Shown here: piece by piece, positions 1 to 11,677 of the stretch
Layout: each line of letters starts with the position of its first letter
Numbering within the stretch: position 1 is the first letter of the stretch
DNA from: an uncultured Erysipelotrichaceae bacterium
GTDB taxonomy: Bacteria; Bacillota_I; Bacilli_A; RF39; UBA660
Assembly: GCA_902791625.1 (NCBI GenBank)
Contig: CADAWN010000006.1
Location: 10,669-56,696 of the forward strand
Direction of reading: 5' to 3'
Length of the DNA: 46,028 nt
The notes under the pieces: model-generated
Told to the model about the DNA's origin: nothing
Database searches by the model: none
Seen by the model: the letters and a program-made list of their open reading frames with translations, nothing else
Program-made: the position numbers and the translations under genes

Positions 1-35
1 ATCAACCAATTTATATTAGTTTTATTTTCATTCAT
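1..35 (-). CDS. repeat-encoded small ORF, copy E (cut by window edge)
   Basis: The first eleven codons read MNENKTNINWL, matching the other small frames of this region. The reading frame runs off the left edge, so its length is unknown. It is preceded by the same ribosome binding site (AAAGGAGTTGATCC) as copies at 1102, 2086, 2897 and 3674. A terminator hairpin (75-105) and a TATAAT box (66-71) lie just upstream, so this copy appears to open a new transcription unit, as copy D does at 3674. Whether the peptide is made or works as a leader is not known. Confidence 0.45.
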   Translation of the reverse strand, partial: MNENKTNINWL

Positions 36-51
36 TTGGATCAACTCCTTT
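1..51 (-). repeat. intergenic repeat unit, copy E (partial)
   Basis: This is the ribosome-binding-site plus small-ORF part of the array repeat, almost identical to copies at 2046-2102, 2858-2913 and 3641-3690. Its far end is outside the window. It implies that the gene array continues to the left. Confidence 0.8.
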
Positions 52-74
52 TTAAAATCATTAAAATTATAGCA

Positions 75-105
75 TAAAAAAGGCAGATTTTGTACTAATC
101 TGTCT
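75..105 (-). terminator. rho-independent terminator before repeat copy E
   Basis: A stem of nine pairs with one G-U (81-89 with 97-105) and a seven-base loop is followed on the minus strand by a T run. It lies between the gene at 233-865 and the TATAAT box that precedes copy E. Confidence 0.65.
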
Positions 106-123
106 AAATTTGTTTATTTATAT

Positions 124-146
124 GTTCTTAAATATTACGTAATCAA
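124..146 (-). repeat. direct-repeat core, single copy upstream of copy E
   Basis: On the minus strand this reads TTGATTAC, seven other bases, then TTAAGAAC. It is the same core as the repeats bounding unit C (914-938 and 1038-1063). Here it stands alone, between the terminators at 200-227 and 75-105. Confidence 0.6.
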
Positions 147-199
147 TTTTTTCAAAATAATTACATGGTCATATGGCAATTACTATCATTCAATATAAA

Positions 200-227
200 G
201 AAAAAAGTATACAATAATGTATACTTA
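200..227 (-). terminator. terminator of the 233-865 gene
   Basis: A perfect eight-pair stem (AAGTATAC with GTATACTT, 205-212 and 219-226) with a six-base loop is followed on the minus strand by a T run. It lies just after the stop at 233 and closes the transcription unit that starts near 3700. Confidence 0.8.
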
Positions 228-232
228 TAGTT

Positions 233-865
233 CTATAAATGTATTTGATTAGGATTAGAATAAAAATTCTTCAAAACTTTTGAAGTAGTCTCAAAAAATT
301 TCTTTTCATCATTATCAAATAAATGTTTTTCTTCAGCTTTGTCAATCATACCTTCAAATTCACTGTTAAAAATTTTATATAATTCACTTAAATCAATGAT
401 TTTTCTTTTATTAGATACAAAATCATTCATTACTGATTTTTTCCATTCATAACACATATTATTATACGTTTCACCAAAAGGAAAAATACGTGGTTCATAT
501 TCTAAACCATATACTATAACACTATTTAAAACTGAATTTATATATTTTTTTCTCAAATCATTATATTCTTCACTATCAATAAGGGAATTATAGCAAAAAG
601 CCACATTTTCCCTTGAATCAGGATCTTCAAGAACACTATATTCAATATTAGCATAGCAATTTAAAATTGCAGCCTCAATAAAAGTTGCAACATCTTGAGG
701 AAAATTTGGTAATTTGCAAAGTTTTACAAGTTCATCAGATGAAGCAAACCAATTATAATCACTCTTGCAATCTTTTTCTACAAGTTTTAATATTTCTAGA
801 GCAGTCTTTCTTTTTTTCTTTCCATTTCTAAAATTAACTACATATCTATTACTAAACAAATCCAC
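233..865 (-). CDS. hypothetical protein, last gene of the repeat-separated array
   Basis: The 210-residue product has no domain that I recognise. It is mixed helical, with no signal peptide or membrane segment, so it is probably cytoplasmic. The start is GTG, placed eight bases after a perfect AGGAGG. A TATAAT box at about 890 could give the gene its own promoter within the upstream repeat unit. It follows repeat unit C and is closed by the hairpin at 200-227. Its array neighbours (DUF1835-like, GNAT, JAMM-like) are unrelated to it, so context gives no clear role. Confidence 0.75.
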   Translation of the reverse strand: MDLFSNRYVVNFRNGKKKRKTALEILKLVEKDCKSDYNWFASSDELVKLCKLPNFPQDVATFIEAAILNCYANIEYSVLEDPDSRENVAFCYNSLIDSEEYNDLRKKYINSVLNSVIVYGLEYEPRIFPFGETYNNMCYEWKKSVMNDFVSNKRKIIDLSELYKIFNSEFEGMIDKAEEKHLFDNDEKKFFETTSKVLKNFYSNPNQIHL

Positions 866-913
866 TAAACAAACCTCCTGTTCAGTTTATTATAACACAT
901 ATATTACATATAT

Positions 914-1118
914 GTTCTTAACTTCTGTAATCACCTTACAATTTCTCCTTAAATAAATGGATATTTTTAGTTATTTTTATTAAGAATATGCAAGATGTAT
1001 TTTCACGTTTTTTCTTATTTTATAATACTTTAGTAGTGTTCTTAACTAAATTGAAATCAACCAATTGATTACGGTTTTATTAAACCCTTTTTCTTCATTC
1101 ATTTGGATCAACTCCTTT
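914..1118 (-). repeat. intergenic repeat unit, copy C
   Basis: This unit joins the DUF1835-like gene to the gene at 233-865. In transcription order it holds the shared ribosome binding site, a small ORF, a direct repeat (1038-1063), a spacer of about 100 bases with a TTGCAT box (988-993), and a second direct repeat (914-938). Both direct repeats carry TTAAGAAC, unlike the TTAACCCC or TTAAACCCC type in copies A and B. This is the most diverged of the three long units. Confidence 0.75.
1046..1102 (-). CDS. repeat-encoded small ORF, copy C (18 residues)
   Basis: The frame reads MNEEKGFNKTVINWLISI. It shares the MNE start and the INWLI core with copies A, B, D and E but has a small insertion. 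Its ATG overlaps the TGA of the DUF1835-like gene (ATGAATGA), so translation could be coupled. AAAGGAGTTGATCC lies directly upstream. The peptide may be a leader or simply part of the repeat. Confidence 0.45.
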   Translation of the reverse strand: MNEEKGFNKTVINWLISI

Positions 1119-1856
1119 TACAACACTTTTAATAAATACTTCATTACTCTCTACTACTTCTATTCTTCCTAAATCAATTAATCTTGAAATTAAAAACACA
1201 AATATACTATCACTTATATAATATTTTTTGCTTAATTCATAAGTTAAATCAATAATCCTTATAGATTTTAATTTAACTATCAAATCAATAATTTCATTAT
1301 CAAAATAATCATAATTTACTGATTTTACAATTCCATTTTGTACTATTCTTAAATTAGAATTTTCTTTCTTAACCATATTCCATATATCAGATAATTCACA
1401 AATTTCTTTTTTAGATAATATATGTTCAATAGTAGAAAGTTTTTCGAACTCGCCACTTGTCATAGTTCCAGGTGAATAACACTCTTTTTTGTATTCATCT
1501 GAATACAATACAGTAATATTATCAATTTTATTTTTTAAACAACTGCAAACAAATAATAAAAGCAAATAACTATCAGGTGCAATATGACTAGACCATATTC
1601 TGATTTTATAATTATTGTCTGCAAAAGTAATTAATTTTGAAATTTCGTTATTTAAATTGCAAATTATTTTTTCATGGTAAATATTTTTAGGAAGTTCAAC
1701 AATATAATTATCAATATTTGTTAAATCACCAACTGATAATGAAACTCTAAAATCAATTATCTCATTTTCTTTAAAAGTACTATTTTTTAAGGAAAGTGAT
1801 GGTGCTCCAGATAAAATCACCTCAACAACATTATCATTTCCTTTTGTTCCAGACAT
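1095..1856 (-). CDS. DUF1835/DUF3658-like protein
   Basis: The 253-residue protein has the layout of DUF1835 followed by DUF3658. Residues 10-120 contain the LSVGD element (40-44) and a short segment (IRIW, then a leucine-rich helix) typical of DUF1835. Residues 150-200 (ELSDIWNMVKKENSNLR, then IVKSV and YFDNEIIDLI) match the DUF3658 pattern. The family's biochemical role is unknown. The start is ATG with GAGGTGA seven bases upstream. The last codons (KGVDPNE) lie inside the shared repeat, so the C-terminal tail is repeat-encoded. The family assignment is from pattern memory and is moderately secure. Confidence 0.65.
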   Translation of the reverse strand: MSGTKGNDNVVEVILSGAPSLSLKNSTFKENEIIDFRVSLSVGDLTNIDNYIVELPKNIYHEKIICNLNNEISKLITFADNNYKIRIWSSHIAPDSYLLLLFVCSCLKNKIDNITVLYSDEYKKECYSPGTMTSGEFEKLSTIEHILSKKEICELSDIWNMVKKENSNLRIVQNGIVKSVNYDYFDNEIIDLIVKLKSIRIIDLTYELSKKYYISDSIFVFLISRLIDLGRIEVVESNEVFIKSVVKGVDPNE

Positions 1857-1876
1857 AATATCACCTCATTTTTTCT

Positions 1877-2102
1877 AAGGGGTTAAAAGGTGTAATCACC
1901 TTATTAATTCCTATCACTTTTTGTATTAAAAATAATCATTTTTTACTAATTTTTACCTATTTTAACATATTTTCATATGAAACATGCAAGATCTTGATTC
2001 TCGCAAAGCCTTGTAAATAAAGGATTTCTTAAAGGGGTTAAATAAATCGTAATCAACCAGTTTATATTAGTTTTATTTTCATTCATCCCACTCAACTCCT
2101 TT
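1877..2102 (-). repeat. intergenic repeat unit, copy A
   Basis: This unit joins the GNAT gene to the DUF1835-like gene. The TAA of the GNAT gene lies inside the repeat's own AAAGGAG. A 37-codon small frame follows, then a direct repeat (2031-2060), a spacer with TTGCAT at 1984-1989 and TAAAAT at 1959-1964 (19 apart), and a second direct repeat (1877-1903). Both repeats carry TTAACCCCTT next to TGATTAC. It aligns with copy B over its whole length. Confidence 0.85.
1973..2086 (-). CDS. repeat-encoded small ORF, copy A (37 residues)
   Basis: It begins MNENKTNINWLITIYL and is the longest complete copy. The first 13 residues are the same as in copy D; the tail past residue 16 is read from the spacer and differs from copy B. 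The shared AAAGGAGTTGA site lies 6-7 bases upstream. Conservation is highest at the N terminus and the binding site, as expected for a leader peptide or for a repeat constrained at the DNA level; these cannot be told apart here. Confidence 0.45.
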   Translation of the reverse strand: MNENKTNINWLITIYLTPLRNPLFTRLCENQDLACFI

Positions 2103-2667
2103 ATTTTAAGTGTTTATTCTTATCTTTTAAATTAACAAAATCTGCATTAAATGTATTTGCTATTACATTAGATAATTCAGAATTATTTGTCATATTAGTA
2201 TATCTCATTTTCATATTATCATTTGTTATTTCATATTCAGAATTTGTGCATAATACTTCATAATTAACACCAGTATCTTCATAATACTTATTTGTATCAT
2301 AAAATCCATTCCTTAAATAAAAGTTTTTTCGTCTAATACTTATATCATCAATTGGTTCATCAACTGATAAAAATAATGCTTTATATTTTTCTTTTAAATC
2401 AGTAAGTATTTTAGAACCATAATTTTGATTTCTAAGTTCTGGTACAACTGCTAAATACATAAGATAATATGCATTATTACAATTAACAAGATAACACATT
2501 CCAATAAATTTATCATTATCTAATATTGCTAACAAATCAGAATTATCTTCTTTAGAACATTCTTCTAATATCCAAAAAGGAAATCTTTCTTCTTCTGGAA
2601 AAGATTCTAAATACAACTTTTCTATTTTATTCTTATATTCTTCATTTTTGATATACTTTAATGTCAT
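2101..2667 (-). CDS. GNAT-family N-acetyltransferase
   Basis: The 188-residue protein has the GNAT fold pattern. The acetyl-CoA-binding motif A is YLAVVPELRNQNYGSKIL at residues 71-88, and a later motif (YLRNGF, about 117-122) fits the C-terminal half. The N-terminal SFPEEERFPF is common in a Bacillota GNAT subfamily. It should transfer an acetyl group from acetyl-CoA to an amine; the substrate cannot be read. The start is ATG after GAGGTGA. The stop codon overlaps the repeat's ribosome binding site. It is the second gene of the array. Confidence 0.85.
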   Translation of the reverse strand: MTLKYIKNEEYKNKIEKLYLESFPEEERFPFWILEECSKEDNSDLLAILDNDKFIGMCYLVNCNNAYYLMYLAVVPELRNQNYGSKILTDLKEKYKALFLSVDEPIDDISIRRKNFYLRNGFYDTNKYYEDTGVNYEVLCTNSEYEITNDNMKMRYTNMTNNSELSNVIANTFNADFVNLKDKNKHLK

Positions 2668-2686
2668 GAATTCACCTCAAATTTCT

Positions 2687-2913
2687 AGGGGGTTTAACTT
2701 CTGTAATCACCTTATTGATTCCTATACTATTTTCGCTTAAAAATAGTGATTTTTTACTAATTTTTACCAATTTTAACATATTTTTATATAAAACATGTAA
2801 GATGCTATTTTGAGTTTTGCCTTATTTTACAATACTTTTCAAAGGGGTTTAAATTAATTGTAATCAACCAGTTTATATTTGTTTTATTTTCAATCATTTG
2901 AGTCAACTCCTTT
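2687..2913 (-). repeat. intergenic repeat unit, copy B
   Basis: This unit joins the JAMM-like gene to the GNAT gene. It has the shared binding site, a 30-codon small frame, a direct repeat (2841-2871), a spacer with TTACAT and TAAAAT boxes, and a second direct repeat (2687-2714). Both repeats carry TTAAACCCC next to TGATTAC. Large blocks of the spacer match copy A almost base for base. Confidence 0.85.
2805..2897 (-). CDS. repeat-encoded small ORF, copy B (30 residues)
   Basis: It begins MIENKTNINWLITINL; only the second residue differs from the consensus start. The tail (from residue 17) is spacer-encoded and ends at TAG 2805-2807. The same AAAGGAGTTGA site lies upstream, just after the stop of the JAMM-like gene. 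Confidence 0.45.
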   Translation of the reverse strand: MIENKTNINWLITINLNPFEKYCKIRQNSK

Positions 2914-2918
2914 AAACT

Positions 2919-3602
2919 TTAAATTTTTCTAATTTCAGATGTATGAATAAATTTTTCTTCTTTTATTCTATTATATATACTATAAAATTCTTCAAAAGTT
3001 AATTGTCGTCTTTTTAAACCGATATAATCACAATACAAATTTTCTTGATCATATATATTCATTTTTTTGTATTCAGGATTGCTACAAATATATTTCCAAA
3101 ATGATATATCTATAATTTCTTTATCAATATGATTAATTGAAGAAATATCATATTCCAAAACACCTTTATCATGAATAATATAAACCAGTTTATTGAATGA
3201 ATTTCCATTTTTTAAATCATTCATTGATGGAACACCTACGTTAATTTTTACATCTTCGATAGGGTGAGAATGTACATTTAATAAAATACTATCACCCTTT
3301 TTTAAAATTGGTATCAATTCACCAGCATAGTAGCTATATTCATTTTTGGAAATGTTCATAACCAATTTATCGTTTATCATTAAAATCATTATTTCACCGC
3401 AATTATTCATAAATTTTGGAAATTGCTTTAATAAATTAATAGATGGAAATCTGTTTATAATATAATTACCTTCATTTAGATTTTCAATATCAGATAATGT
3501 AGTATCATCTTTTATATAAAAAGTAGGATAATTATTTACAATATTAAATAATTCATCTTCAGACATACATTCCCAAAACTCTAAACCTGTTTTTTCACGC
3601 AT
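2919..3602 (-). CDS. JAMM/MPN-like putative metalloprotease-fold protein
   Basis: The 227-residue protein carries HSHP at residues 111-114, followed by S126 and D129, and has E70 in a preceding hydrophobic strand. This is the order of the JAMM zinc motif (Glu, His-x-His, Ser, Asp). The gap between the second His and the Ser is 12 residues, longer than the usual 7, so activity is uncertain. Such proteins cleave isopeptide or peptide bonds, or act in nucleotide-signal and phage contexts. No partner is visible. ATG follows GAGGTGA. It is the first gene of the array, after the spacer-less repeat copy D. Confidence 0.6.
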   Translation of the reverse strand: MREKTGLEFWECMSEDELFNIVNNYPTFYIKDDTTLSDIENLNEGNYIINRFPSINLLKQFPKFMNNCGEIMILMINDKLVMNISKNEYSYYAGELIPILKKGDSILLNVHSHPIEDVKINVGVPSMNDLKNGNSFNKLVYIIHDKGVLEYDISSINHIDKEIIDISFWKYICSNPEYKKMNIYDQENLYCDYIGLKRRQLTFEEFYSIYNRIKEEKFIHTSEIRKI

Positions 3603-3620
3603 TTGATCACCTCATTATAA

Positions 3621-3690
3621 TACTGGTTACTATTCTGTAATCAACCAGTTAATATTAGTTTTATTTTCATTCATTTGGATCAACTCCTTT
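3621..3690 (-). repeat. intergenic repeat unit, copy D (spacer-less)
   Basis: This copy has the shared binding site and the small ORF start, then TTGATTACAGAA and only about 30 bases before the JAMM-like gene. It lacks the long spacer and the second direct repeat. It lies right after the lipoprotein gene's terminator, with a TATAAT box at 3695-3700. It may be the leader end of the array. Confidence 0.8.
3630..3674 (-). CDS. repeat-encoded small ORF, copy D (14 residues)
   Basis: The complete frame is MNENKTNINWLITE, ending at TAG. It is the minimal form of the small frame. AAAGGAGTTGATCC lies upstream, and the JAMM-like gene starts 28 bases after its stop with its own GAGGTGA site. Confidence 0.45.
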   Translation of the reverse strand: MNENKTNINWLITE

Positions 3691-3694
3691 AGTT

Positions 3695-3700
3695 ATTATA
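3695..3700 (-). promoter_or_regulatory. TATAAT -10 box opening the gene array
   Basis: A perfect TATAAT sits between the upstream terminator and the ribosome binding site of copy D. No good -35 box stands 17 bases upstream, because that stretch is the terminator stem. An equivalent TATAAT precedes copy E (66-71). Confidence 0.45.
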
Positions 3701-3702
3701 TC

Positions 3703-3725
3703 AAAAAAGCAGGATTTCTCCTACT
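3703..3725 (-). terminator. terminator of the 3759-4295 lipoprotein gene
   Basis: A seven-base stem (AGTAGGA with TCCTGCT, one G-U type mismatch) and a short loop are followed by six Ts on the minus strand. Nearly the same hairpin recurs at 7617-7642. Confidence 0.75.
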
Positions 3726-3758
3726 CGTCAGTTCACAATAACAAAAACATTCTGAACA

Positions 3759-4295
3759 CTATTTTTCCATTATTAAACATTTTCCATTTCTATTTTTGTG
3801 AAACGACTGAAAATATGATTTATATTCATCAACAGAAAATTTATTGTTATCATCAATATATTTAGATGAATTAGCAAATACAGAATTCTTGTCAACTGTT
3901 TTGATATCATATTCGTGATTAACAACAAATTTTGTATCTGATATCTTATTTATTTCTACTTTAACACCTGAATATGTATTTTGTCTTTCTGCACTTTTTT
4001 CTTCTGAACTTCTATATTTATCGGCAAGTTCTTTTGTTGAATACTCATACTCATTTTTTATAGTTATTGTTTTTAGAACATCGTTATCATCATAAGTATA
4101 TTCTTCAACATCGTAGGTATTAGGTTCATATTCATTATCAGCCTCTTGTTTATTTGAACATGTCATAACATATACTTTTGATGATTTAGTTTTATTTTTT
4201 TGATTAGAATTATTATTTGTAGTTTTACTACCACATCCTGTCACTACTATGATTAAAATTCCTATTAATAAAAAATTTAATACTCTCTTTTTCAT
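3759..4295 (-). CDS. lipoprotein of unknown function
   Basis: The 178-residue precursor has a basic N terminus (MKKR), a hydrophobic stretch and a lipobox VTGC with the lipidated cysteine at residue 21. An Asn/Lys/Ser-rich linker follows, then a domain of about 135 residues with many Asp, Glu and Tyr. It should be anchored on the outer face of the membrane by Lgt (28869-29663) and a signal peptidase II that is not in the window. I do not recognise the mature domain. ATG follows GAGAGGAG. The gene appears to be a unit of its own. Confidence 0.8.
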   Translation of the reverse strand: MKKRVLNFLLIGILIIVVTGCGSKTTNNNSNQKNKTKSSKVYVMTCSNKQEADNEYEPNTYDVEEYTYDDNDVLKTITIKNEYEYSTKELADKYRSSEEKSAERQNTYSGVKVEINKISDTKFVVNHEYDIKTVDKNSVFANSSKYIDDNNKFSVDEYKSYFQSFHKNRNGKCLIMEK

Positions 4296-4427
4296 GTCTA
4301 AACTCCTCTCTCACTTTATAAATTATTATAACATAATTTTTTGATATTTTTTTATAAACTCTTCATATATTTTTTTATATTTAATATCTATAATAATATT
4401 GCCTACTTTCACATAAATTATTTTACT

Positions 4428-5435
4428 TTACTTTTTATATTTATCAATTTTATACTCTTCATTATCTGGAAATAATAATACATCATCTGGTATAAATATT
4501 AATGTTGCTGGAGTATTATGTATATCTTTTTCTTTTATTCCTACACATGTACAATAATTATATCTAAAATATTTATTTTTATGATATATAGATATTTTAC
4601 CACTAGTAACTGATGATATAATTACATGATATGCGATATATTCATGCTTACGAACTACTCTTATCTTTTTTAAAGCATTAGAAATATAGAATGCAACTAT
4701 AGGTATAGCAAATGCTAAAAAGAAAATTGAAAGAAATAAAATAAAACCAAATGATCTATTAGCACGTGTTCTTATAAGATTAGCTGCTACATTATTTGTA
4801 TAACTATGATCTGTAGTCATATAGTGATAACATGCAAAAACTACAATAGACATAATAGCTATTACTACTAATATATTTAATATTTGATGTTTATATACTG
4901 ATGATAATATCTTTTTTTCAAATGCTACTGGTGTTTCCACTCTATAATAATTTTTTGAATCTTTAATGTTTTCTAGATTACCGTTTTTATAAAAAATATT
5001 TTTCCATCTTTGTGTATCATTTTTAACATATTTTACTATATTAGGTGTAGTTATAATTCCTATTGTAGGAAACATACAGAAACCAACAATATAATTAATA
5101 ATACCATCACTAGGTTGCAATGTAATAACAGTTATTGCAGTAACAATAAAAGTAACTAATGTTGAAAGTAATATTTTATCAATATACCATTTTACTGGTT
5201 TAACATTTTCTATATCTTTATCACGTAATAATACAATAAATACTAAAATATATATAATATAAGCTATTAAAGTAAATAAAAAACTAATTATTACAGTCTT
5301 AATAGATTCATTAATCATTGCATTTATTAAAAAACCATTACATATACCAAAACATATAAATAGAACTGAGAATAATAATATTATTAATAATAGAATTCCC
5401 ATTGATAATTTTTTTCTAGTTTTTCTTTTTTTCAA
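4428..5435 (-). CDS. multispanning membrane protein of unknown function
   Basis: The protein has about 335 residues with some six hydrophobic segments: a cluster of four in the first 135 residues, and two more around residues 185-210 and 230-255. The last 80 residues are soluble (NKYFRYNYC, IPDDVLLFP). The start is taken as TTG at 5435, six bases after AGAGGTG; an in-frame GTG at 5444 overlaps that site. It is the last gene of a tightly packed operon that begins at 7573. No family is recognised. Confidence 0.65.
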   Translation of the reverse strand: MKKRKTRKKLSMGILLLIILLFSVLFICFGICNGFLINAMINESIKTVIISFLFTLIAYIIYILVFIVLLRDKDIENVKPVKWYIDKILLSTLVTFIVTAITVITLQPSDGIINYIVGFCMFPTIGIITTPNIVKYVKNDTQRWKNIFYKNGNLENIKDSKNYYRVETPVAFEKKILSSVYKHQILNILVVIAIMSIVVFACYHYMTTDHSYTNNVAANLIRTRANRSFGFILFLSIFFLAFAIPIVAFYISNALKKIRVVRKHEYIAYHVIISSVTSGKISIYHKNKYFRYNYCTCVGIKEKDIHNTPATLIFIPDDVLLFPDNEEYKIDKYKK

Positions 5436-5449
5436 TATATTCACCTCTT

Positions 5450-5845
5450 TTAGATCTTTTTTATTAGTTTTAATTGTTTATTATTTTTCTTTAAATAATT
5501 ATTCAATTGTTCTTTTAATTCATCTCGATCAAATGAATAATAAAACTTTTCATTTCCACCATCAGACATAGCAACTTCATAATTTTTCATTTCTTCAATT
5601 GGTTTTACTATAACTGGTATTTCTTCTTCTATTATGTTTTCTCTTTTTCTAATTAAATCTTTATTATACCAATCATATACACTAATTGCATAGGCTTTTC
5701 CATCTTCACCTACTATAGCACAATAAAATCTTGGATCTGCACCATTTAGTTCTTCAATAGGTATATCATTTGACCAAACAGCACGTAGAATTCTATATTC
5801 ATAGATTTCATTACCATCGCAATCATATCCTAAACAATCATTCAT
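5450..5845 (-). CDS. small hypothetical protein
   Basis: The 131-residue soluble protein starts MNDCLGYDCDGNEIYEYRIL. The start chosen is the ATG with GAGGTGAT just upstream; a longer frame to 5899 would overlap the preceding gene. Residues 45-60 (FYCAIVGEDGKAYAISVYDW) look like a beta-hairpin. No family is recognised. It lies between the HTH-repeat protein and the membrane protein, with very short gaps, so the three are probably co-transcribed. Confidence 0.65.
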   Translation of the reverse strand: MNDCLGYDCDGNEIYEYRILRAVWSNDIPIEELNGADPRFYCAIVGEDGKAYAISVYDWYNKDLIRKRENIIEEEIPVIVKPIEEMKNYEVAMSDGGNEKFYYSFDRDELKEQLNNYLKKNNKQLKLIKKI

Positions 5846-5856
5846 AAATATCACCT

Positions 5857-6618
5857 CTATCTTAAAAAACCACAAATAAAGTCTAATACAAATCTCCAAG
5901 TATTTGGATAATTATCTAAAATTACATTTCTTAATTCACTTGATGTTGGCTTTACTAAAATAATTGTACCATTAACATGTTTTCCTACTGCAATATGTCC
6001 ATTTGCATAACCTCCAATAGATATATATTTACCTATTGAATATCCTCCTACTGAATAATAACCGATTGATACACCACCAAGAGTTAGTATTCCAATAGCT
6101 ATTCCTCCTATTGCAAATGGTGCAATTGATATACCTCCAATACTCATAAGTAAAGCTAAACTAATACCTGCGATAGAAAATAAACCCAAACTAATTCCAC
6201 CAATAGAAATAAGACCTAAACTTAGTCCTCCTAAAGAAAATATTCCTTTCGCCTTACCACCTATAGCAACAACACCTTTAGCATCATTACCAATTGCAAT
6301 AAAACCTCTTGCTTTTTTACCTCTACCTATATTTATATGAATAAATGGTTTCCCTTTAATAGTTTTCTTACTTTTGTATTCGTAACCAACATGAAATACT
6401 TTTCTATCTTCACTTACGTACTCATTATTATCTACTAATTCATCTATACTGATATTAAATTCTTTAGATAATAATTTTAACTCTTTAATAGATGGTTCAC
6501 TCTTATCATTTTCCCAATTAATTATATCTTTCTTATTTACTGATAATTTTTTAGCAAGATCTTCTTCACTTAAATTATAACTTTTTCTTAAATTAATAAT
6601 ATTAGTACTTAATTTCAT
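5857..6618 (-). CDS. XRE-type HTH protein with glycine-rich repeat domain
   Basis: About 253 residues. The first 60 form an XRE/Cro helix-turn-helix (SEEDLAKKLSVNKKDIINWENDKSEPS). From about residue 90 to 225 there are tandem units of 6-10 residues with the pattern (I/V)GG(I/V)(S/A)(I/L)G, such as IGGISLGLFSIAGISLALL. Such repeats are compatible either with a beta-helix or with a membrane-embedded glycine-zipper region. HTH proteins with similar tails occur in Bacillota, but their role is unknown. ATG at 6618 is preferred; an in-frame GTG lies at 6627. The stop of the preceding gene (6620-6622) nearly overlaps this start. Confidence 0.75.
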   Translation of the reverse strand: MKLSTNIINLRKSYNLSEEDLAKKLSVNKKDIINWENDKSEPSIKELKLLSKEFNISIDELVDNNEYVSEDRKVFHVGYEYKSKKTIKGKPFIHINIGRGKKARGFIAIGNDAKGVVAIGGKAKGIFSLGGLSLGLISIGGISLGLFSIAGISLALLMSIGGISIAPFAIGGIAIGILTLGGVSIGYYSVGGYSIGKYISIGGYANGHIAVGKHVNGTIILVKPTSSELRNVILDNYPNTWRFVLDFICGFLR

Positions 6619-7891: not shown

Positions 7892-8369
7892 TTATTTTAA
7901 AATGTTTTTAATATCTTTATTTTTCACAAACACTAACTTATCTTTATATTCTTCTAAACTTTTTAATCTAGATTTTTCTTTTTTATAATATGAATTAACT
8001 GTAGAAATATAATATAACCATTGCTTAAAATTAGGTTTAGCATTATATCTTTCTACACCTTTTTTTTGTCTAATCCATCTTTTTGTTACTCTATAATAAG
8101 ATTTTATTCGTGAAAACTTTATATAATAAATTATATCAGCTTCACTTCTACCCTCTTTAAATTTATCTCTTCCCACATCTTCTATTATCCATTCTTTATT
8201 TAAATATTCTTTGTACTTCTTTATCTGATCGTTTTACATTTCCATTATCATCATCCCATGACACTTTATCAAGTTCATAATATTTAATACCATACTTTTT
8301 TGATAATTTAGTTGCAAAAGTAGTTTTACCACTTCCTACAGGTCCAATAATATATATTTTATCATACAT
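7892..8369 (-). pseudogene. frameshifted FlaR-like P-loop kinase (DNA topology modulation family)
   Basis: Two frames together make one protein of the FlaR/adenylate-kinase-like family. The 5' part (start ATG at 8369 after AGAGGTG) has the P-loop GPVGSGKT and the YELDKVSW element, and stops at TAA after RIFK. The continuation, one base shifted, reads NKEWIIEDVGRDKF at the junction (about 8195-8205) and goes on with the family's R-rich C-terminal half (RWIRQKKGVERYNAKP). Total length is about 158 residues, near the usual 165-175. The shift lies in an A-rich run (TTTAAATAAAG). It may be a true mutation, an assembly error or, less likely, programmed. Function in the family is a nucleotide kinase-like activity that is poorly defined. 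Confidence 0.75.
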
Positions 8370-8420
8370 ATCTTTCACCTCTAATAGTTATATGTTTCTT
8401 TATTACCATATTAAACTCAT

Positions 8421-9487: not shown

Positions 9488-11677
9488 TTATTTTAAATGT
9501 ATATCTATCGTTTCTTTTAATTTTTTATTTCCTTGATCAGTTAAATGTATACCATCACTAGTTATATATTTTTTATTATTCTTTAATTGATTAAAAAAGT
9601 TAATCTCTTTAATATCTTTATTATCAATATTTAATGTGTTACTAGTTATTACTATATATATTTCATTATCTTTATATAATTTTGATAATTCATTATAATC
9701 ATCTTTAGTAATATGAGTTTTACTATCAAATACAAAAACTAGTTTATGATTTAGTTTATTCTCTTTTAACTTTTTCTTTAATGATTTATAATCTAAGTTC
9801 TTATCTATTATAAAAGATGCATCTTTGTAATCATTTTCTAAGTTCTTATACATTCCTAGTAATAGATCATTACCGATAAATGTAATTTTTTCTTTTTCTT
9901 TATTTTCATGTTCTTTTATTTTTTCTTCTTTCTTTTTCTTAAATTCATTTAAATAGTTTTCATATATGGATTCAAAAATGACTTCTGCATATACTTTACA
10001 ACCTTTAATAGTTGGATGAACACGATCAGATATTACATATTCAGGATGTTTTTTAACTACACTTACCCAATCAATTATATAAACATTTTCATATTTACTT
10101 GCAAAGTTATTTAGTTTATCATTAAAGTCATCATAATCAGCATTAGTCGCATTAAGCCAAAATACTTTTCTATCTCCTAATGTCTTCATAATTTCATCTG
10201 TATATTTCTGATAAAACTCACCATTAGTACCAATATTAAGTACCACTACATCTCCTAAAATCTTTCTATTAATTAAATCTTTTAAAACATCATTAGTTTG
10301 ATAAGTTGTACGATTTACTTTGGCATCAAAATAACCTTTAGGAAACTCATTATATAAATCTTTTATAGCAAGTTCCATAACTGAATCTCCTACACCTACA
10401 ATATGTAAATTCCTAACTTTTTCTTTTAACTCTTCTTCACTACTATTTAAATCATTAAGAATATTATTCCATTCATCTTCTTCTTTTTTTAGATTATTTA
10501 GATAATCTTTTTGTCTTTTCTTAATAAGTTCACTATTCTTATTTAAATCAATTTCTAGTTTTTTCATCTCTTTAGTATAGTCTTTCATAGTTATATATTT
10601 ATAGAAACCAAATGATGTTCCAATAAGAATAAGTATTAATAAAAATAATCTAATAGTTTTAATTTTATTTTTTACTTTTATATTAAGAGCTAATTTAAGT
10701 ATTATAGAAATTAAAATAGTTATAACTATAATTAGTGGTATTTTGATATAATTAGTAAGTTTTATATTTTGAAAAATAAATATTACTGGATATTGTACTA
10801 AATATATTTCATAACTTATTTTAGAAAATAATGAAATAATTATATTAAGAGTACTATTAGTATTATTAATACTCTTACCATAATCTATTAGTCTTACAGT
10901 TATAAGAGTTACAAGTAGCATACTTATACTAAAGAAATTTGATTTAAAATCTATAGTAATAAATAATATAATCATAGTTAATAAATATATCATAAATAAG
11001 ACATTCTTAAATAAATAATTCTTAATAATTAGTGGTTTATAATGCACATGAATAAATCCTACTAATAAACCAAGGGTAATAGAAAATAATCTTGTAATAG
11101 TACCATAATAAGCATTCATTAAATTACCTTTACTTACCATTACACAGAATAATATATAACTAATTAGAGAGAATAAAAGTAATAAGAAACATGGTAAAAA
11201 CTTACTTATCTTTTTACTTATTTTATCTAGTCCCTTAAGTATAAAAGGAATAACTAATTCAAACTGTAAAATAATTGCGATAAACCATAAATGCATAAAT
11301 GGTGATGAAATATGTCTTACAAAGTAATCTAAATTAGCATTTAATTGCCAATAATTATTATATCCAAAAAGGATTGATGTTACTTCTGGTTTATAGTTAG
11401 TAAAATTAATACTTTTTATTAATGAAGTAACTGTTATAGTTAAAAACACTACTATAAGAAGTGGAAAGTATATTTTTTTAAATTTATTTATGTAATATTC
11501 TTTAAAAGAAAATTCTTTCTTTTTATAAAAAGATACAACAGAAAAGTAACCAGTTAATACAAAAAAAGTACAAACAGCAAGATAACCACCTTTAAGTATA
11601 CCTATATGATAAAAAAGGATTGAAATACAAGCTATCACGCGTATTAAATCTAATTTTTTATAGTACTTATCTTTCAT
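9488..11677 (-). CDS. OafA/YrhL-type membrane O-acyltransferase with two SGNH modules
   Basis: The 729-residue protein starts with an acyltransferase-3 domain of about ten membrane segments (1-365). It has the usual LDLIRVIACISILFYH near the N terminus, with catalytic H24. A coiled linker follows. A first SGNH-hydrolase domain (about 420-565) has GDSV, then NIGTNG and SDRVHPT, so Ser, Gly, Asn, Asp and His are all present. A charged linker leads to a second, degenerate module (about 595-729): FIGNDLLLG in place of the GDS motif, yet SDGIHLT intact. Such proteins O-acetylate cell-wall polymers or peptidoglycan. ATG follows AGGGTGA. Confidence 0.9.
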   Translation of the reverse strand: MKDKYYKKLDLIRVIACISILFYHIGILKGGYLAVCTFFVLTGYFSVVSFYKKKEFSFKEYYINKFKKIYFPLLIVVFLTITVTSLIKSINFTNYKPEVTSILFGYNNYWQLNANLDYFVRHISSPFMHLWFIAIILQFELVIPFILKGLDKISKKISKFLPCFLLLLFSLISYILFCVMVSKGNLMNAYYGTITRLFSITLGLLVGFIHVHYKPLIIKNYLFKNVLFMIYLLTMIILFITIDFKSNFFSISMLLVTLITVRLIDYGKSINNTNSTLNIIISLFSKISYEIYLVQYPVIFIFQNIKLTNYIKIPLIIVITILISIILKLALNIKVKNKIKTIRLFLLILILIGTSFGFYKYITMKDYTKEMKKLEIDLNKNSELIKKRQKDYLNNLKKEEDEWNNILNDLNSSEEELKEKVRNLHIVGVGDSVMELAIKDLYNEFPKGYFDAKVNRTTYQTNDVLKDLINRKILGDVVVLNIGTNGEFYQKYTDEIMKTLGDRKVFWLNATNADYDDFNDKLNNFASKYENVYIIDWVSVVKKHPEYVISDRVHPTIKGCKVYAEVIFESIYENYLNEFKKKKEEKIKEHENKEKEKITFIGNDLLLGMYKNLENDYKDASFIIDKNLDYKSLKKKLKENKLNHKLVFVFDSKTHITKDDYNELSKLYKDNEIYIVITSNTLNIDNKDIKEINFFNQLKNNKKYITSDGIHLTDQGNKKLKETIDIHLK

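Follow-up and report, generated by a model that had tools for sequence, protein, structure and literature searches.

Cassette arrays of the size described here are known from integrons. In the current study, a tandem array of gene cassettes was analysed in the 5' end of rbgA (ylqF), an essential ribosome-assembly gene, in an uncultured Erysipelotrichaceae bacterium. The stretch of DNA under study (46,028 nucleotides, here called the window) corresponds to bases 10669-56696 of the 56.7-kb contig CADAWN010000006.1. Like the integron system (IntI, attI and attC), the rbgA array consists of unrelated cassettes, mostly of a single gene, that share one orientation and carry a recombination unit each, and its contents are shuffled between genomes. 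Unlike an integron, it has no IntI (over cut-off) and no folded attC, its target is an essential gene, and each cassette brings a replacement for the start of that gene.

The staphylococcal cassette chromosome (SCC) and Enterococcus cassette chromosome (ECC), which use CcrA/CcrB at rlmH, share with the array serine recombinases at the element end, sometimes as a tandem pair (PMC6222049). In these systems, too, the end of a housekeeping gene is targeted, composite elements occur in tandem and the gene is restored after insertion, but SCC and ECC target the 3' end of rlmH, whereas the array targets the 5' end of rbgA at codons ~10/11. The array further differs from SCC in its often single-gene cassettes, in array lengths of tens and in two cores at helical spacing, and its recombinases, although related to Ccr, are far below the NCBIfam Ccr cut-offs (86-100 bits compared with 900 for CcrB).

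In streptococci, Tn5253 is known to insert in the 5' end of rbgA, and a duplicated end restores the reading frame (PMC8571831, PMC4701971). Tn5253-like integrative and conjugative elements (ICEs) therefore share site and coding restoration with the array, but they are large, conjugative, use a tyrosine integrase and have no cassette arrays. Tandem accretion of elements without an integrase has also been described (PMC5704250). Such cis-mobilizable, ICESt1-related elements retain their ends and stack at one site, whereas the rbgA units are shrunk to ~0.8-kb gene units in long arrays. Elements with a large serine recombinase (a protein with resolvase, recombinase and zinc-ribbon domains) near their end occur in relatives, but none was found in the genome of the window. 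The open-access papers searched contained no account of cassette arrays built by serine recombinases at rbgA.

The best reading of the locus is a staphylococcal-cassette-like integration by a serine recombinase, carried to an integron-like array. We give a probability of about 0.8 to the view that mobile, site-specific gene cassettes stand in tandem in the 5' end of rbgA and were moved by a serine recombinase.

The initial annotation had described four unrelated genes joined by a repeated unit in five copies (A to E), with a 50-base block. Sequence comparison recovered all five copies in place, with 71-96% identity across the 51-base block, and the block, whose origin had been overlooked, is the ribosome-binding site (RBS) and first ten codons of rbgA, with the insertion site inside that gene. 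The array and all its joints are read on the minus strand, where the block is AAAGGAGTTGATCCAA-ATG AAT GAA AAT AAA ACT AAT ATA AAC TGG, followed by TTGATTAC..., and every joint has RBS-ATG-MNENKTNINW directly joined to TTGATTAC... RbgA begins with this peptide, and an intact copy of its gene (MNENKTNINWYPGHMAKTKRQ...) lies at the array end (L011:5148-6014), 4.6 kb past the left edge of the window. The promoter-side end of rbgA (copy D) is ~8.3 kb from the rbgA body, and everything between them thus sits after codon 10. The cassettes are placed between codon ~10 and 11, each with a replacement rbgA 5' end.

Each joint is a unit of ~185 bp in which a putative crossover core (AAC-TG-G) is paired with a second core that matches it. 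Core1 consists of AAY-TG-G and TTGATTACGATTTA..., and then a stretch specific to the class (TTAACCCC, TTAAGAACA, AGTAAC, TCTAGCCAT...), and core2 repeats both of these parts from its own unit, the repeats being direct, not inverted. The two cores of one unit agreed 6/6 in 49% of 212 units, compared with 22% for shuffled cores; in the non-ATTAC classes the values were 21% and 6.5%. The distance between the cores peaked at 156-157 and 146-147 bp, i.e. one helical turn apart. AAYTG is common to all units and to rbgA, and its TG is the likely crossover dinucleotide, while core2 has no TG at the matching position and is probably a binding site only. At sites of the KTVINW type the core is palindromic (GTAATCAA-CTGG-TTGATTAC), which fits a site for a recombinase dimer.

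Two of three same-genus genomes searched carried the unit (11 matches in G001 and 26 in G002, for arrays of 11 and at least 26 units), with cassette contents that differed from those of the window. Their cassettes encoded queuosine salvage, histidine phosphatase, uracil-DNA-glycosylase-like, BRO and S51 peptidase proteins, as well as an APH-like kinase, HAD, a methyltransferase, an NMN transporter and others. In the genome collection, a 20-base core pattern matched at least 118 stretches, and at least 109 of them carried the unit (at least 255 units), these carrier counts being lower bounds. Among the matches listed, unit carriers were nearly all uncultured gut genomes of Bacilli, Tenericutes or Erysipelotrichaceae, and only two viral contigs appeared, one of them with the unit. 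A class-wide search outside the family of the window detected the unit in two genomes: in G247, which belongs to another family, it lies at rbgA, and in the other it lies at the end of a contig.

Near-identical cassettes were found in different genomes, and their shared spans mark exact boundaries of mobility. A 2594-bp cassette (recombinase and KilA-N) was 97% identical between G063 and G083, which belong to two genera, over a span from core1 to TGG; it adjoins rbgA in G083, and another cassette comes after it in G063. A 2061-bp cassette was likewise 97% identical between G002 and G085 from core1 to TGG, adjoining rbgA in one and lying in mid-array in the other. The DUF488 cassette in the genome of the window was 92% identical to one in G002, as far as TGG. 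Such near-identity in differing contexts and among differing contents points to recent movement of intact small units. Passive accretion, by which decayed integrative elements at a common site would each be left with one gene and no ongoing mobility, is therefore unlikely: the truncated joints C and D would suit it, as would the precedents at other genes for remnants mobilizable in cis and for accretion in tandem (PMC5704250), but not the 97% identical cassettes across genera and contexts, nor the differing contents within one genus.

Serine recombinases of 406-413 amino acids (aa) were encoded in rbgA-side cassettes of G094, G082, G083, G063 and G051, and tandem pairs of 522-576 aa in G001, G002 and G180. 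The recombinase genes in several genomes stop 91-116 bp short of the rbgA junction. Their products have resolvase, recombinase and zinc-ribbon domains, with the motifs Y.R.S and VKD[LM]SR. When the closest relatives of a 412-aa enzyme were compared in 24 genomes, eight of the top ten were located at rbgA and the other two adjoined genes that are cassettes elsewhere. We infer from these associations that the enzymes act on the units. The initial annotation had read the locus as gene capture or cassette exchange, and had proposed to look for the repeat elsewhere, for changed gene content between the joints and for a recombinase at an end. This reading gained support on each count: the unit is widespread and so not restricted to a single place, the contents differ in related genomes, and recombinase genes of one family stand at the rbgA end of relatives' arrays.

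In the short enzymes little follows the zinc ribbon, and they apparently do not have the coiled-coil insertion, which controls direction in phage integrases (PMC3783163). The apparent absence of this insertion, together with the attB-like right end of every cassette, would predict reversible, integron-like behaviour. In G001 and G002 a conjugative element has a unit at its left end and a tandem recombinase pair at rbgA. In G002 this element comes after the array, its left-end unit reads AAC-TG-TTCG..., and the recombinase pair, which the element also carries, lies at rbgA across a probably invertible hsdS region. Elements of 0.8 kb to tens of kb thus use one site. It was also observed that the ends of G002 contigs C16 and C42 (L095, L097) carry type I restriction specificity genes that share an inverted end of 60 bp, probably an invertible hsdS in the conjugative element. 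A fusion of the first pair member to the rbgA start (N-terminus ..NW followed by LVGIYTRR) was considered and dropped, because the G180 homologue differs there. Two more recombinases of 406-415 aa (L260:4538-7743 and L259, G085) had no recognisable unit and adjoin uracil-DNA-glycosylase-like and deoxyribosyltransferase-like genes, which are cassettes elsewhere; these loci are possible second target sites.

Movement of the cassettes by a Tn5253-type tyrosine integrase, with core2 as an arm-type site, appears quite improbable. Tn5253 does use the same end of the target gene (PMC8571831, PMC4701971), arm sites could account for a repeat lying ~150 bp away from the core, and a 321-aa tyrosine recombinase is encoded in the conjugative element beside the G002 array; but that gene lies in the interior of the element, not at its rbgA end. 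Leaving aside a gene of the XerC/CodV type downstream of rbgA, the arrays scanned upstream of rbgA contained no tyrosine recombinase, and it is serine recombinases, unlike tyrosine ones, that recur beside the junction.

The unit showed no conserved RNA structure (alignment folds of ~0 kcal/mol, zero covarying pairs), and an Rfam search of window positions 1-6000 gave no match; the reading of the unit as a structured RNA, attC or bridge RNA was rejected, and nothing in it resembles the conserved RNA of group II introns or bridge-RNA elements. It is very doubtful that the unit acts as a guide RNA, a bridge RNA or a regulatory leader whose repeats spread through gene conversion and not cassette movement; the copying of core1 by core2 of the same unit and the short peptide encoded past each RBS would agree with this, but the array region of the window has neither an Rfam match nor conserved pairs, the shift in spacing is one DNA turn, and cassettes pass between genera whole and with exact ends. 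A true integron, in which an IntI-like integrase would recombine attC sites folded as single strands, is barely credible despite the integron-like array logic and cargo (hydrolases, GNATs, a phosphotransferase and queuosine salvage), since no IntI (TIGR02249) scored over the cut-off in 17 genomes and the unit has no conserved fold and direct, not inverted, internal repeats.

Replacement of the rbgA start could also be followed in the protein. Some pairs of RbgA sequences that are 94-95% identical after the Trp start with unrelated residues. On an RbgA tree from which the start was left out, the types of residues before the Trp changed 24 times, compared with 21.8 +/- 1.6 for shuffled labels; changes as frequent as those of shuffled labels indicate that the first residues of RbgA belong to the last-inserted cassette. 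A comparison of synonymous sites before and after the Trp (0.29 and 0.37) was too weak to decide, and the tree test was used instead. Promoters in the cassette right ends were weakly enriched (0.29 compared with 0.19). Many rbgA contigs in the family of the window stop within about 250 bp upstream of rbgA, where repeats would cause such breaks.

In the proposed mechanism, a cassette would consist of a core with the right arm TTGATTAC..., a 157-bp (or 146-bp) spacer and a second core, followed by the gene or genes and by an RBS with ATG...AAYTGG. A large serine recombinase of the resolvase type would cut at the TG of AAY-TG-G, and the circular cassette would be joined to rbgA at the boundary of codons ~10 and 11. 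Because the right end of the cassette would give rbgA a new start, the essential gene would stay functional, and every insertion would rebuild a usable target beside it. Through repeated insertion the array would grow on the rbgA side and older cassettes would be moved away. Copy D, which had been taken for the entry, is the promoter-side upstream end, and cassettes probably enter at the fixed rbgA side instead. Core2 would serve as a non-crossover binding site, kept on the same face of the DNA. The recombinase would come from some of the cassettes (406-413-aa enzyme) or from a conjugative element (tandem pair), and would act in trans on the rest.

Several points weigh against this mechanism. 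No recombinase of the 412-aa clade was found in the genome of the window, where the search gave just a distant, incomplete enzyme at the end of a contig, and the recombinase genes could be mere passengers. Serine integrases normally need no second site 150 bp off. Neither a circular cassette nor an excised site was observed, and the genomes are fragmented drafts binned from metagenomes; joint E itself contains an N gap (10638-10668).

The chances are about even that the locus represents a second, independently evolved integron-like system, in which one clade of serine recombinases, dedicated to this role, would take up single-gene cassettes at one essential gene, shuffle them and have them expressed. 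Such a system would be reversible without a directionality factor, because the right end of the cassette imitates and rebuilds the target, and conjugative elements using the same site would spread whole arrays. If true, gene-cassette capture evolved more than once, here via an unrelated enzyme family in common uncultured gut Bacilli, which would explain much of the accessory gene flow in these small genomes and the assembly breaks at rbgA. The arrays would also be a source of compact serine recombinases with natural multi-insertion sites, and they show an essential protein, RbgA, in which mobile DNA constantly swaps the first residues.

In the window, the array begins at its upstream end with copy D (3639..3690; all features are on the minus strand), which comprises the RBS, rbgA codons 1-10 (MNENKTNINW) and a core with TG at 3646-3647. 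As had been noted, D is without a spacer, core1 being directly joined to a core2-type flank (the first copy of G001 is also spacerless), and it follows a hairpin and T-run terminator and a TATAAT box (3695..3700), which, read from the sequence, is a putative displaced rbgA promoter. The gene of cassette 1 (2919..3602, 227 aa) had been labelled JAMM-like, but matched no Pfam family at E <= 0.1. It is followed by unit B (2687..2913), with the rbgA 5' end, core1 (TG 2869-2870), 157 bp and core2 (2703-2712), and by cassette 2, a GNAT acetyltransferase (2101..2667, 188 aa; PF00583, 2.1e-9). Unit A (1877..2102) has core1 (TG 2058-2059), 157 bp and core2 (1892-1901); it aligned with B along its length, as described before (80% over 212 bp, E 2.8e-47), and with an additional copy outside the window (77%, E 1.2e-37).

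Cassette 3 (1095..1856, 253 aa) is a DUF1835/DUF3658 gene, a label that the Pfam search upheld, as it did that of the GNAT. At its end the gene runs into the RBS of unit C (914..1118), which has the peptide MNEEKGFNKTVINW, an rbgA start type of other species, core1 (TG 1062-1063), a shortened spacer and core2 (927-936). The gene of cassette 4 (233..865, 210 aa) is without a Pfam family. Copy E (1..51; rbgA 5' end and core1, TG 7-8) is indeed cut by the window edge, and the repeat goes on in L011, across the N gap in the same contig. The four genes are thus part of a longer array, which leaves the window leftwards with further cassettes for SWIM, HTH, RhuM and KilA-N proteins and a DUF488-like one that adjoins rbgA.

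A second kind of joint was found at 122..178, where GCCATATGACC, the reverse complement of the rbgA codons immediately past the Trp, stands 31 bp before TTGATTACG..TTAAGAACA and is followed by a terminator, TATAAT (66-71), an RBS and the rbgA 5' end. It recurs in L042, L043, L149, L155, L162, L212 and L222, with GCCATATGNCC (also the reverse complement of post-Trp rbgA codons) at a near-constant 31 bp before TTGATTACG, and mostly continues into a terminator, promoter and rbgA 5' end.

Outside the array, genes at 5450-5899 and 7892-8378 (minus strand), the latter apparently split into two open reading frames, were 64-80% identical to cassette genes of G001 and G002. No units are left there, and these genes may be relics of an older array stretch. 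Past the left edge, the RhuM-like and neighbouring genes (L011:8255-9753) showed degenerate internal duplications within one long cassette region, and two tandem paralogues of 430 and 415 aa with a HELLH-like motif lie between rbgA and rnhB (L011:2581-5142). In G002, the array-contig ends of C41, C27, C36, C17 and C16 were pairwise identical over at least 141 bp, as at branch points of an assembly graph, and may represent repeated cassettes or mixed strains.
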